This document shows positions 832 to 7,688 of a stretch of 64,000 bases of DNA, in pieces. The DNA comes from Trichocoleus sp. FACHB-40 (GTDB lineage: Bacteria > Cyanobacteriota > Cyanobacteriia > Cyanobacteriales > FACHB-T130), in contig NZ_JACJPF010000044.1 in NCBI RefSeq assembly GCF_014695915.1, positions 124,001 to 188,000 of the forward strand. Direction: 5' to 3'. The position numbers were made by a program, and so were the translations under genes. A model generated the notes under the pieces. It saw only the letters and a list, made by a program, of their open reading frames with translations, was not told the DNA's origin and made no database searches. Position 1 is the first letter of the stretch; the number at the start of each line of letters is the position of its first letter.

Positions 832-3800
832 TTAATTTGCTTGTTGGATGGGAATCTCAATCCAAAACTGAGTACCTTTGCCTGGTAGGGAAGAACACTG
901 GAAGACACCGCCGTGTTTTTCCACCACAATTTGATAGCTGATGGATAGTCCCAAACCTGTTCCCTTACCAACTGGCTTAGTGGTAAAAAAGGGATTGAAG
1001 ATTTGCGATCGCACTCCTTCTGGCATTCCGGAACCATTATCGGAAATCTGAATGAGTGCGCGATCGCCATTTCGTACTTTGGTACTAATCTGTATCGTAG
1101 GGATTGCTGATTGGGCAGACTCTTCTGCCAGTCCCACATCAAGAGTCCCCATGTCCAGAGCGTCAATCGCATTGCTGATGACGTTCATAAACACTTGATT
1201 GAGCTGACCAGCATAGCACTCAACTAAGGGCAAATCGCCATAAGCTTTCACAACCTCAATACTGGGAACGTTACCCTTCCCCTTAAGTCGATGTTGCAAG
1301 ATTAACAGCGTACTGTCTAGACCCTCATGGATATCAACTAGCTTCATTTCAGCTTGGTCTAGGCGAGAGAAATTGCGTAGTGACAGCACCAGTTGCCGAA
1401 TGCGATCCGCCCCAACCTTCATCGAGGAAAGCATTTTGGGTAAATCGTCAGCCAGAAATTCTAAATCAATTTCCTCTTGCAGCTTGAGAATCTCAGAGTC
1501 AGGATGGGGATAACGCCGCTGGTAGAGATGCAGCAGATCCAGCAAATCTTGTGCGTACTCACCAACGTGAGCCAGATTCCCATAAATGAAATTGACCGGA
1601 TTGTTAACTTCGTGAGCTACACCCGCCACCAGCTGTCCCAAACTTGACATTTTTTCTGTCTGAATCAGCTGAGTTTGGGTTTGCTGTAGTTCTTTGATAG
1701 TACAAGAAAGTTGTTCTGTCTGCTCTTGGGTTTGAGTTAGGAGTTCAGCTTGCTGTATAGCTATGCCTAGTTGAGCAGCAATCTGGTTGACAAAATCAAT
1801 AGCGGAGGCATCCCAGTGCCGGGGTTCACGGCATTGATGGATACATAGCAGTCCCCACAGTAAATCCCCTTTCAAGAGCGGCACTACCAAGTTAGCTCGG
1901 ACTTGGAATTGCTCTAGAAGCTGGATATGACAATCGTTTAAGCCGGCGTTGTAGATGTCATCAACTATCTGAATCCGACCTTGTTGATAGAGGTGAGCAT
2001 AGTGTTGGGAAAAATGACGATCGTAAACTTTGGTTCCTAAAACAGGCTTAAACTCTGGCAACACGTCTTCTGAAACAAATTCATCATTCTCCGAACCAGA
2101 GGCTGAATATAAGCAAAATACTGCTACTCGGTCGGCTTCTAGCAGTTGTCGAACTTCAGTAGTTGTTGCCTTGAAGATTGTCTCCAGGTCAAGGGATTCT
2201 CGAATTTTGGTAACAACCGCAAATAATGCTTCCTGTTGTTCGGCAGCTTGCTCTAGTTGTTGGGCTTTTTGGGTGGCAATGTCAGCAGCAGCACGACTTT
2301 GTTGGTAGAGTTCGGCTTGTTGAATAGCGATCGCTGCTTGATCCGCCAGCTGTTGCAGTAGCTCTATTTCAGCCTCCTGCCAAATCCTCGTTTTAAAGCA
2401 CTCATGGGCAATGAGCAGTCCCCACAGGTGATCGCCCATCCTAATCGACACGACTAAGTTAGCTTGAACTTGAATATTCTGTAAAAACTTTATATGACAG
2501 GGGTCTAAATCTGACTCTAATACGTTGTTAATAGCCCGAACTCTTCCCTGCTGGTACCGATAGGCGTAGTCCAAAGGAAAGCATTTATCGTCATATATAT
2601 CTCCCAGAATTGAGGTGGCATTGTCTTTCACATCTTCTACGACCACTTCCCCCTGGTAGCCTTTGGTGAACTGGTAAATCACCACTCGATCTGTGGTTAG
2701 CAATTCCCGGACTTCTCGCACGATGCTTTTTAAAATGGTCTGTAAGTCGAGCGTGCTACGAATTTGATCTGTAACCTGCTTCAAGACTTTGGCAAAATCC
2801 AACGATTGCTGCAACTGTTGTGTACGCTCCTGTACCTGACACTCCAGGTTGGTATTCAGAGTCTTCACCTGCCTGTACAGTTCATACTGCTCAATTGCCA
2901 TTGCGAAGTGATGGGCTAAGGCAGCAGCCAGTTCAATGTCTTCTTTTGTCCACTCGCAAGCTTGACCTTTTTTCAGCTCTAGCCAAGCTTCAAACGAGTT
3001 CCGGGGTTGCCACTGTCGCTCATCGGAATCAAAACGTCCCGCCCACAAAGTTTCTGTTTCAATTTCATCTCGAAATACGCTTAAGTAACCGAGAAACTCT
3101 TGACGATACTCCAGGGGTATAACGATCATGCCTCGAATCTTTGTTGGGCGGAATGCTGCTGCTAGCACTCGCAGGCCCGGTTCTTTATATATATCCCTAA
3201 TTGCTACCGGGCTATTGCAGACAGGATCTTGTAATTTAAAGTATTGCTGCCATACAAGACTCTCTTCGAGCAGGCAATCTTTCCTGAGTCCTACTAGCAT
3301 CGGCTGAGCGCCGCAGGTAAACTGTTTACCTCCAAAGCTGGGGTTTTCTGCGGCTATGTAAAGTCTGCCACCGGAACCCTTAAAGGCGGCAACGGTTTCT
3401 ATGAGAGCTTGTTGTACCTCAATCGATGGTAGTGTATGCAGCAGGGTTGCTACTCGGTTAATCTTGGCTTCGATAATTGCTTGTTCGCGAGCGCGTCTGA
3501 GGAGATTTGACTGCGCGATCGCAATTGAAACTTGATCCGCAACTAACTGCACAATTTGCAGTTCCCTTTCGGAAAAAGTACGTGTTTGGGCGTTGTGAGA
3601 AACTAATAATCCCCACAGATGCGGCTGTACTTTGTGTGCCTGTACGTCGTACTGTAAAATCGGCACCACTAAGGAAGACTGCACCCCCATTGCTGTGAGA
3701 TATTCAATATGGCAAGGGTCTACTTCGCGATAGTAAAAACCTTGCGTCTCCAAAGGAATACCAGTTTGGGGACAATCCAGTTGACTTATCCCAATCTTCC

Positions 3801-4131
3801 CTGTAGCAAGATCCACAATTGAACGCCCTCTGGCTTTGATAAACATTTCGCGGGCGTGGGGAGGAATGTCATCTGCTGGAAAATTCAACCCCAGCAGGGA
3901 CGGCAGGCGGTTGTTATAAATCGACTCAGCAATAACTTGCCCGCTACCATCAGCATGAAACTGATAAACTTTGACTCTATCGGTTTCTAGAAATGAACGG
4001 ATCTCGGCAACTGTTGATATTAATATCTCTTGCAATTCTAGAGATTGCCGAATCCGGTTCGTGATTCGATGCAGTAACCCTTCTTGTTCTATTTTTGAGG
4101 GCATATTCTGCGTATTATTACTGAGTTCCAT
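832..4131 (-). CDS. Multi-GAF phytochrome-like sensor histidine kinase (knotless phytochrome + DXCF GAF hybrid)
   Basis: A 1099-residue soluble photoreceptor-type kinase. GAF1 (about residues 25-210) has the phytochrome DIP motif (D88-I89-P90) and the bilin-type Cys-His pair C140-H141 in DPCHIEYL. The next domain (about 220-415) is PHY-like: it carries tongue signatures W363-A-G and PRNSF at 376-380 followed by EAW. No PAS precedes GAF1, so the front resembles Cph2-type (knotless) phytochromes. GAF3 (about 450-610) has DKCF at 515-518 and C545-H546. GAF4 (about 635-800) has DRHF at 704-707 and C734-H735. A coiled coil leads to a HisKA domain with H840 in VAHEVNNP, then HATPase motifs (N978 region, [16 protein letters not shown]). 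No receiver domain is present and no response regulator is adjacent. Bilin binding is inferred, not shown. The ATG at 4131 directly follows an AT-rich intergenic region. Confidence 0.93.
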
Positions 4132-4421: not shown

Positions 4422-4871
4422 TTACAAACGTTGCCGAATTTCTTGGCGGACGCTCATCAGAATTTTGCCTAGATAATTTTGACCAGTTTTATCTTTACCG
4501 CAACCCCAGTAGTAATCGATTTGGGAATCTTCGACAAGTAAGCGATCGCCTGTAGAAAGCAAAATAGACTGAATATCTAAATGGGTGAGAAACTTAATAA
4601 GCACAGCTTCGCGCATAATTTCGGTTTTTAGGCTTTCCCAGTCGGGACGGATGTGGCGAGTGCGATCGCGTCCCAATGTTGCTGCTTGCATTGGTGTCTT
4701 GGCGCTAGCAATCTCTAAAATTAAAGCTTCATCCTTGGTGCCAACAAATTTTTGCGCTTGATAGTAATGCTCTACCGTCGCCCAGTCTTGCCCCAGCAGA
4801 TGAATGCAATGAGGAGAAAAGTTGGAAAAACATCCATATGGATCGTCAACTTTGTAAAAATAAATCGTCAT
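4422..4871 (-). CDS. NADAR family N-glycosidase (YbiA/RibX-like)
   Basis: A 149-residue protein covering a complete NADAR (DUF1768) domain: CFSNFSPH near the N-terminus, WATVEHYYQAQKF around residues 30-42, and the C-terminal YWGCGKDKTGQN.LG element. Characterised YbiA-type members hydrolyse the N-glycosidic bond of early riboflavin-pathway intermediates (damage control); other NADAR proteins act on ADP-ribosylated substrates. Which applies here cannot be told from sequence. It stands alone between the kinase and a TPR gene, both on the same strand but separated by repeat-containing spacers. Confidence 0.9.
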   Translation of the reverse strand: MTIYFYKVDDPYGCFSNFSPHCIHLLGQDWATVEHYYQAQKFVGTKDEALILEIASAKTPMQAATLGRDRTRHIRPDWESLKTEIMREAVLIKFLTHLDIQSILLSTGDRLLVEDSQIDYYWGCGKDKTGQNYLGKILMSVRQEIRQRL

Positions 4872-5984: not shown

Positions 5985-7118
5985 TTAGCCGCCCATACCG
6001 GGGATCATACTCTTACTCAGTCGCTTAATGGCACGATCAGCCACTTCTGAGTAACGGCTTTCCCCGCATAGCAGTTGACCCATTTTTTCAGCAGCACCGG
6101 GGCGCTTAACACCAACTTTATAAGCGATACCAGGAATTCTGTAGAAAATTCCTGCTAAACGTTGCGCCCACACCATGTCAGATCCCCATTCTTGAGCGAT
6201 CGCATTGGTGTATCCTTCCAAAGCATTGCGATCGCCTCCCACAGCTTTATCAATTGCTTCTGCTGCCTTCAAACCGCTAAACATCGAGGGACGAATTCCC
6301 TCAGCCGTAAACGGATCGACGACACAAGCAGCTTCTCCAGCTAAAACTGCATTTTGGGTATGCAGCTTTTGATCGCCGTCCCACAAGCACAAAGGATGAC
6401 CGTACTGCTTGCTGGTTTTGACATCAACATTAAACAGCGTGGCATACTCAGCTAGGAGGCTCTTAAAGTCTTGCGGGTCGCTGCCTCGGAAGTTGCCAAT
6501 CCCGATAGAATAGCCGTCGGCTTTGGGAAAATTCCAGATATAGCCATTTTTGACCATCCCAAATTCAAAATGAGCGATGTGACCGTTTTCTACTTGTGCC
6601 TTTGGTTCTGCCTCCAAAGCGCCAGCCAGACGGCGTTTGCGCTCTTTAAAGCCCAGCCACTTAGCCATTGGCCCTTTGGCTCCATCGGCAGCAATTAAAT
6701 AACGACCTTGTACCGGGCCGTTTGCCGTGTTGACTTGCCAAGCGTCGTTCTTAAACTCAATTCCCGTCACTTCCGTATTGTCTCTAAGTTCTGCGCCCTG
6801 TTGCTGCGCCTGCTGGATAAGAAAGTGGTCGAAAACGTCTCGCCGCACCATCCATATTGGTTCTGGCGTATTCAGTTCTGTTTCCACCGGATCTTTCATA
6901 TTCCATGTGCAGCGAATCGTGTTCACCTTCAGGGAAATGGCGGGGGAGAAGTCAAAATCAAACCACTCGGCAACTGCTGGCGAAACGCCACCTCCACAAG
7001 GTTTGTATCGAGGCAGAGATTCTTTTTCTATAACTAAAACTGAGCGTCCCCGCTTCGCTAAGTGATAAGCTGCGGTTCCACCTGCTGGGCCAGCGCCGAC
7101 AATAATACAGTCAAACAT
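5985..7118 (-). CDS. Geranylgeranyl reductase family FAD-dependent oxidoreductase
   Basis: About 377 residues from the ATG at 7118 (MFDCIIVGAGPAGG). A GTG at 7145 gives a nine-residue extension that precedes the Rossmann strand and is unlikely. FAD-binding GxGxxG (GAGPAGGTAAYHLA), the family motif RYKPCGGG around residues 46-53, GRYLIAADGA, and GEAACVVDPFTAEGI (second FAD motif) are all present. The family includes ChlP, which reduces geranylgeranyl to phytyl chains for chlorophyll and tocopherol, and archaeal-type lipid reductases. This protein is more divergent than the usual cyanobacterial ChlP, so I assign only the family. It could reduce an isoprenoid or another lipid. Confidence 0.85.
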   Translation of the reverse strand: MFDCIIVGAGPAGGTAAYHLAKRGRSVLVIEKESLPRYKPCGGGVSPAVAEWFDFDFSPAISLKVNTIRCTWNMKDPVETELNTPEPIWMVRRDVFDHFLIQQAQQQGAELRDNTEVTGIEFKNDAWQVNTANGPVQGRYLIAADGAKGPMAKWLGFKERKRRLAGALEAEPKAQVENGHIAHFEFGMVKNGYIWNFPKADGYSIGIGNFRGSDPQDFKSLLAEYATLFNVDVKTSKQYGHPLCLWDGDQKLHTQNAVLAGEAACVVDPFTAEGIRPSMFSGLKAAEAIDKAVGGDRNALEGYTNAIAQEWGSDMVWAQRLAGIFYRIPGIAYKVGVKRPGAAEKMGQLLCGESRYSEVADRAIKRLSKSMIPGMGG

Positions 7119-7688
7119 CGTATTAATTTTTGCTCCTGAACGCACTTGAATTTGAGGCTGGAAGGAGAATTTAGATTCTCATAGGTGCATCCCACTTTTG
7201 GACACTCTAAAGGGCCGATGCTAGGCAAGCAAATATCGCCTGCACGGTCTTAAGAATTTTAGCCTGCCTACGCAGACTTGGTTGGCTTAGCCCGTAGGAG
7301 TATATTGGCACGCAATGGAATTATCATCCTCACTCTTGTACTCACTGGTTTAAAGCTTAGTTGCTTTGGGTGCTAACTGGCTATTTGCGTAATTTCCCTG
7401 TTCCAGTAAAAAGCCTACAATCTAATGCTTTCAAGCTTTTTAGCATAGCGATCGCTGTTTGGATATTATATTGTGCTTTTATTTGCCCAATCAATTCCGT
7501 GTTTTCAACTACGTAAGCGATTAATTGCTTTTAAACTTGCCGATAGACAACGCGATCGCCATCTTTAATAAATTCATCAATTTCACTGAGTGCAAAATTG
7601 CCTATAATTTATAGGATTGGTTCATGAAAGCTTCATAAAATTAAAAACAAGATAAAGCTGTGCATTTACTACTGTGAGGTCAAGACTT
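7119..7688. other. Long intergenic region with a dispersed repeat and a possible gene remnant
   Basis: No intact gene seen in 570 bases. It contains a GCCTGCCTACGCAGACTTGG segment (about 7263-7282) related to the palindromic element near 17950, several HIP1 sites, and AT-rich DNA. On the minus strand between about 7600 and 7381, a reading frame with protein-like composition is broken by one TAA and lacks a start (see the separate pseudogene entry). Confidence 0.6.
7381..7600 (-). pseudogene. Possible decayed small gene
   Basis: The minus frame reads ALSEIDEFIKDGDRVVYRQV, then a TAA, then KQLIAYVVENTELIGQIKAQ and onward to a TAG at 7381. The amino-acid mix is protein-like, but there is no start codon and no family I recognise. 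This may be chance. Confidence 0.22.

Follow-up and report, generated by a model that had tools for sequence, protein, structure and literature searches.

The phytochromes that most resemble the protein described here lack a PAS domain. Synechocystis Cph2 contains a knotless GAF-PHY sensor with a tongue (PDB 4bwi), and its outputs are GGDEF/EAL domains rather than a kinase. All2699 of Nostoc (Anabaena) sp. PCC 7120 combines GAF1 (638/685 nm) and GAF3 (645/595 nm), with a PHY-like GAF2 between them, and a C-terminal kinase; both GAF1 and GAF3 bind phycocyanobilin (PCB) and are photochromic (PMC6696110). The gene aphC is identical with all2699 (PMC4005646). Accumulation of cAMP in far-red light reportedly needs AphC, purportedly acting via CyaC (PMC4284465). 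SyB-Cph1 from Synechococcus sp. JA-2-3B'a(2-13) follows a PAS-less GAF-PHY-GAF2-HK plan (PMC11264168).

The window, a stretch of 64,000 nucleotides from Trichocoleus sp. FACHB-40, encodes a protein that shares with All2699/AphC a PAS-less GAF1-PHY front end followed by a cyanobacteriochrome (CBCR) GAF domain and a histidine kinase. All2699/AphC has one CBCR GAF, whereas the window protein has two. SyB-Cph1 is the top match in both sequence and fold, and both proteins have a RIT stretch ahead of GAF1 (residues 22-24 in the window protein). It differs in having one GAF domain between PHY and kinase instead of two, and in its tongue motif, which reads PLISF instead of PRNSF. The front end is likewise similar to that of Cph2, whose solved module is about 33% identical to the window protein.

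Architecture of the photoreceptor kinase

The photoreceptor histidine kinase gene is located at positions 832-4131 on the minus strand of the window and encodes 1,099 residues in the order GAF1-PHY-GAF3-GAF4-HisKA-HATPase. A sequence-only reading of this DNA, which gave no strand, had proposed a PAS-less GAF-PHY front end, two CBCR-type GAF domains and a kinase. HMM, PDB-sequence, fold and conservation tests agree with this proposal, and together with AlphaFold they confirm the architecture of GAF1-PHY with a tongue, GAF3, GAF4 and an intact histidine kinase. The motif positions it named are exact, namely DIP 88-90, C140-H141, W363-A-G, PRNSF 376-380, C545-H546 and C734-H735; the protein thus contains three canonical bilin Cys-His pairs, in GAF1, GAF3 and GAF4. 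In an HMM scan, which that reading had put forward as a check, Pfam profiles detected GAF (3.8e-73, three stretches), PHY at residues 332-414 (40.4 bits, cut-off 27) and HATPase_c (1.3e-23). HisKA scored 17 bits, below its cut-off of 26.9, and its H-box is invariant. A PAS domain ahead of GAF1, which begins near residue 16, is excluded because the open frame extends over no more than 1,105 codons, as the earlier reading had held. No biochemically characterised protein with this domain order was found among open-access papers; the reading's hint that the order is unusual is weaker than it suggested, since the order is common in cyanobacteria.

GAF1 (3502..4086, minus strand, residues 16-210) is of the phytochrome type. 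Its DIP and C140-H141 motifs are invariant in an alignment of 59 homologues except for Ile89, which is at least 90% conserved; D88, P90, C140, H141 and, in the following domain, W363, A364, S379, F380 and W383 are invariant. Conservation of these signature residues is far beyond chance. Cys140 (3712..3714, minus strand), the expected bilin attachment site, is present in 59 of 59 homologues and aligns with the chromophore cysteine of All2699. In fold alignments, GAF1 is 58-59% identical to GAF1 of All2699 (6OZA). When residues 1-415 were compared with PDB sequences, the matches were GAF-PHY of SyB-Cph1 (8w26, 2.4e-72), GAF1 of All2699 (6oza, 2.8e-69) and Cph2 (4bwi, 2e-55).

The PHY domain (2872..3465, minus strand, residues 223-420) includes a tongue at 2947..3063 (minus strand, residues 357-395) with the motifs WAG 363-365, PRNSF 376-380 and WLE 383-385. 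These correspond to the tongue motifs W(A/G)G, PRxSF and Wx(D/E) named in PMC6696110. The sequence features of PAS-less (knotless, group II) phytochromes are present: the GAF-PHY core, DIP, the Cys-His pair and the tongue motifs. An AlphaFold2 model of GAF1-PHY, based on the alignment of the 59 homologues, reached a pLDDT of 89.6. The sequence-only reading had named structure prediction of residues 215-415 beforehand as the test that could overturn it, and this region is modelled as PHY with a tongue extension and not as an ordinary GAF domain. The long extension spans residues 357-395, and its helix 371-387 carries PRNSF; residues 362-364 are poorly modelled. Foldseek and VIA-align identified SyB-Cph1 GAF-PHY (8w26) as the best fold match (Z 29.7, rmsd 5.0 over 353), with Cph2 (4bwi) second among whole GAF-PHY modules (Z 26.7, rmsd 3.3 over 338). 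In the model, the helical tongue resembles the state reported for SyB-Cph1 (PMC11264168).

The histidine kinase module (835..1701, minus strand, residues 811-1099) comprises the phospho-acceptor His840 and HATPase_c. H840, the N-box, D1031 and the G2 box show no variation in any of the 59 homologues, and the H, N, D and G boxes of a sensor kinase are intact. No response regulator is encoded within about 6 kb of the kinase gene, nor is there one in the gene list of the related locus L122. A scan for promoters and terminators returned sites no more numerous than in shuffled sequence, and the plasmids contain no full-length copy of the kinase. The host genome encodes one bilin reductase, and PCB is therefore the likely chromophore. 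A second PAS-less phytochrome, the only other PHY protein of this genome, is a Cph2-like GAF-PHY-GGDEF-EAL protein of 887 aa (L001 412-3075, G000:C63).

The two CBCR domains

GAF3 (2308..2787, minus strand, residues 449-608) belongs, according to tree and alignment, to a two-Cys clade of CBCR GAF domains with the pattern xxC[F/L]P. Its best match among PDB sequences is the 'dual sensor histidine kinase' 6oap, followed by TePixJ. A tree of 67 CBCR GAF domains with five structural references unites it with 21 further GAF3 domains from related kinases (support 100/99), and this clade adjoins RcaE (99/93). Cys545 (2497..2499, minus strand), the canonical bilin cysteine, is followed by His546. A second cysteine, Cys517 (2581..2583, minus strand), occupies the DXCF-Cys position of TePixJ. 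This cysteine, a proline two residues further on and the canonical Cys-His pair each occur in 24 of 24 clade members, a count that leaves out L016, whose GAF3 lacks both cysteines. GAF3 of the window reads DKCF (515-518). The aspartate two residues before C517 is found in only two of the 24 members, GAF3 of the window included, so that the clade differs from TePixJ in lacking the DXCF Asp in 22 of 24; it groups with RcaE, apart from other DXCF domains. Judged from its residues, the clade is marked by xxC[F/L]P and the canonical Cys-His pair, with neither the RcaE triad nor, in 22 of 24 members, the DXCF Asp. The DXCIP lineage, described as being without the canonical Cys (PMC6628166), was ruled out for GAF3, which keeps C545.

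GAF4 (1732..2223, minus strand, residues 637-800) matches 6oap best among PDB sequences, followed by NpR6012g4. In the tree of 67 domains it lies inside a 13-row clade (99/96) made up mostly of DXCF domains. GAF4 itself reads DRHF (704-707), with His706 in place of the first Cys, so the second cysteine typical of DXCF domains is missing. The canonical Cys734 (1930..1932, minus strand), followed by His735, is invariant in 23 two-CBCR proteins. The AlphaFold2 model of GAF3-GAF4 is of moderate quality (pLDDT 76.5, pTM 0.47) and shows continuous long helical linkers from GAF3 through GAF4 to the kinase, at pLDDT 50-60. The sequence-only reading made no mention of C517, of His706 or of the NADAR gene described below.

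Two other readings of these domains were considered. GAF3 could be a green/red protochromic sensor like RcaE or CcaS, as its clade groups with RcaE and an FP(x)EY-like stretch is common to both. The RcaE triad E217/L249/K261 is absent, however; the aligned residues of GAF3 are K516/H546/N558, all different, and Cys517 sits at RcaE V218. GAF3 therefore does not look protochromic, and RcaE-type protochromism was rejected as very improbable. According to the other reading, GAF1 is the sole working photosensor, and the other two GAF domains, which have degenerated or bind another ligand, act as spacers. This would suit the evolutionarily labile number of CBCR GAFs, the loss in GAF4 of the first Cys of its lineage and the non-canonical residues after Cys in several relatives (CY, CF, CV). 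Some homologues, such as L016, have lost bilin residues in one domain, so not every GAF of the family must bind bilin. The complete retention of C545-H546 and C517 in the GAF3 clade and the invariance of C734 argue against mere spacers, which makes this reading unlikely.

Distribution of the family and its NADAR neighbour

A GAF1-PHY relative (E <= 1e-20) was found in 84 of 386 sampled cyanobacterial genomes, a sample heavy in one family, f6. Among 59 full-length relatives, PHY is followed by one CBCR GAF in 30, by two in 23 and by three in six. The G030 family shows comparable variation in ORF length, taken in each of 131 genomes at the best match to All2699 GAF1: about 920 (39 genomes), 1,100 (74) or 1,290 residues (12), and fragments (six). 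On a midpoint-rooted tree of GAF1+PHY+HK, the number of CBCR GAFs requires 12 changes; the two-GAF state alone requires 10, eight of which are forced by well-supported branches. L016, L099 and L008 form long branches in the trees. The window kinase pairs with L122 as its sister (97/87), and the tree excludes it from the All2699 clade (31 rows, 100/100), which is a sister clade. This position and the repeated changes in GAF number mean that the domain order of the window protein is not unique: the modular design is common, and this form of it was put together independently.

Degraded copies of PAS-less phytochromes with in-frame stops occur at G385:C1:3252152 and 2168227 and at G284:C1:3931012. 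In several NADAR-linked relatives of family f7 (G099:C1:5563503-5564960, G354:C75, G039:C188, G203:C22 and G195:C101), the match breaks at about query residues 162-260. As the break lies within one open frame, the GAF1-PHY junction has diverged or contains an insertion.

A NADAR-family gene (4422..4871, minus strand) is located 290 bp upstream of the kinase start on the same strand and encodes a predicted RibX-like riboflavin-intermediate N-glycosidase. It scores 142.6 bits with PF08719 (cut-off 35.1) and 175.5 with TIGR02464 (cut-off 73.7), the latter the family of riboflavin biosynthesis intermediates N-glycosidases. Within the set of 59 proteins, 21 of the 28 loci in the window's part of the tree have NADAR as their immediate 5' neighbour on the same strand, and none of the 31 All2699-clade loci does; in some of the latter the upstream DNA is short (about 1.5 kb). 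The pair is present in 36 of the 386 genomes, from seven families, and NADAR is 5' and on the same strand in all 36, at a distance of 283-1,149 bp. A gene-by-gene comparison of six loci showed NADAR and the kinase as the sole genes common to all; any other shared gene occurred in two loci only. In the G284 pair, what is left of the kinase is a stop-containing fragment, which still adjoins the NADAR gene. The linkage of NADAR and kinase is a strong genomic association. The gene is also directly 5' at L122, L137, L138, L141, L021, L008 and others. A geranylgeranyl-reductase-like gene lies upstream of NADAR in the window (5985-7145, minus strand) and at L122 (10713-11843) and is absent at the four other compared loci. 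NADAR proteins have been tied to riboflavin damage control and to reversing the ADP-ribosylation of guanine (PMC11125620). A search of open-access papers yielded none that connects NADAR with phytochromes.

The linkage may be no more than an inherited gene order that has no functional meaning. At the linked loci the two genes are about 260-1,150 bp apart, which argues against a tight operon, NADAR occurs without the kinase in many genomes, and the sampling bias towards f6 points the same way. The identical order and strand across seven families, and the fact that no further gene family is common to more than two of the six compared loci, speak against this; neutral synteny is somewhat less likely than not. 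The neighbour also bears on whether the window kinase is an All2699/AphC ortholog with an extra GAF, acting on a CyaC-type cyclase and raising cAMP in far-red light. Front end and kinase are the same as in All2699, and AphC is reported to drive far-red cAMP through CyaC. The host genome does encode a CyaC-like protein with two receivers, GAF, HisKA, HATPase_c and an adenylate cyclase domain (L162 866-4633, G000:C125), one among about 20 cyclase-domain matches. Direct orthology was nevertheless rejected, as the tree sets the All2699 clade apart from the window kinase and its sister, and GAF3 of All2699 is of the Trp-lid red/green lineage whereas that of the window is of the xxCFP type. The NADAR neighbour, present in the window, is missing at the close All2699 orthologues L152 and L153, as at the other loci examined in their clade. 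The AphC-like role is accordingly improbable.

Proposed function and significance

The protein is probably a multi-colour light-sensing histidine kinase in which three bilin inputs act on His840. It would be soluble and probably dimeric. By analogy with All2699 and SyB-Cph1, GAF1 would bind PCB at C140 and switch between red and far-red, and the PHY tongue would refold and pass this switch into the helical spine. GAF3 and GAF4 are envisaged as independent CBCR sensors in series between PHY and kinase, joined by long helices, with bilin likely attached at C545 and C734, respectively. In GAF3, C517 probably forms a reversible second link, which would blue-shift one state, whereas GAF4 probably senses with a single Cys. 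For GAF1-PHY and GAF3, the proposal of bilin binding follows the precedent of All2699 (PMC6696110), with its two photochromic, PCB-binding GAF domains ahead of a kinase. The three inputs would bias how readily His840 is autophosphorylated and passes its phosphoryl group to a response regulator encoded at an unlinked site.

More tentatively, NADAR and this kinase branch might form a conserved light-signalling pair in which light would regulate NADAR-type reactions, on N-glycosidic bonds or on ADP-ribose, or be coupled to them; and the GAF3 domains of this clade might be an undescribed two-Cys CBCR lineage that has a photocycle of its own.

A single polypeptide carrying as many as three bilins in series would be a natural case of one kinase reading several colours. 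Among its relatives, versions with one, two or three CBCR modules on the same core and kinase make up a series for studying how stacked sensors use a common output helix. The GAF3 clade may prove to have a new two-cysteine photocycle, and the conserved NADAR neighbour offers the first concrete lead to what this branch of kinases may control.
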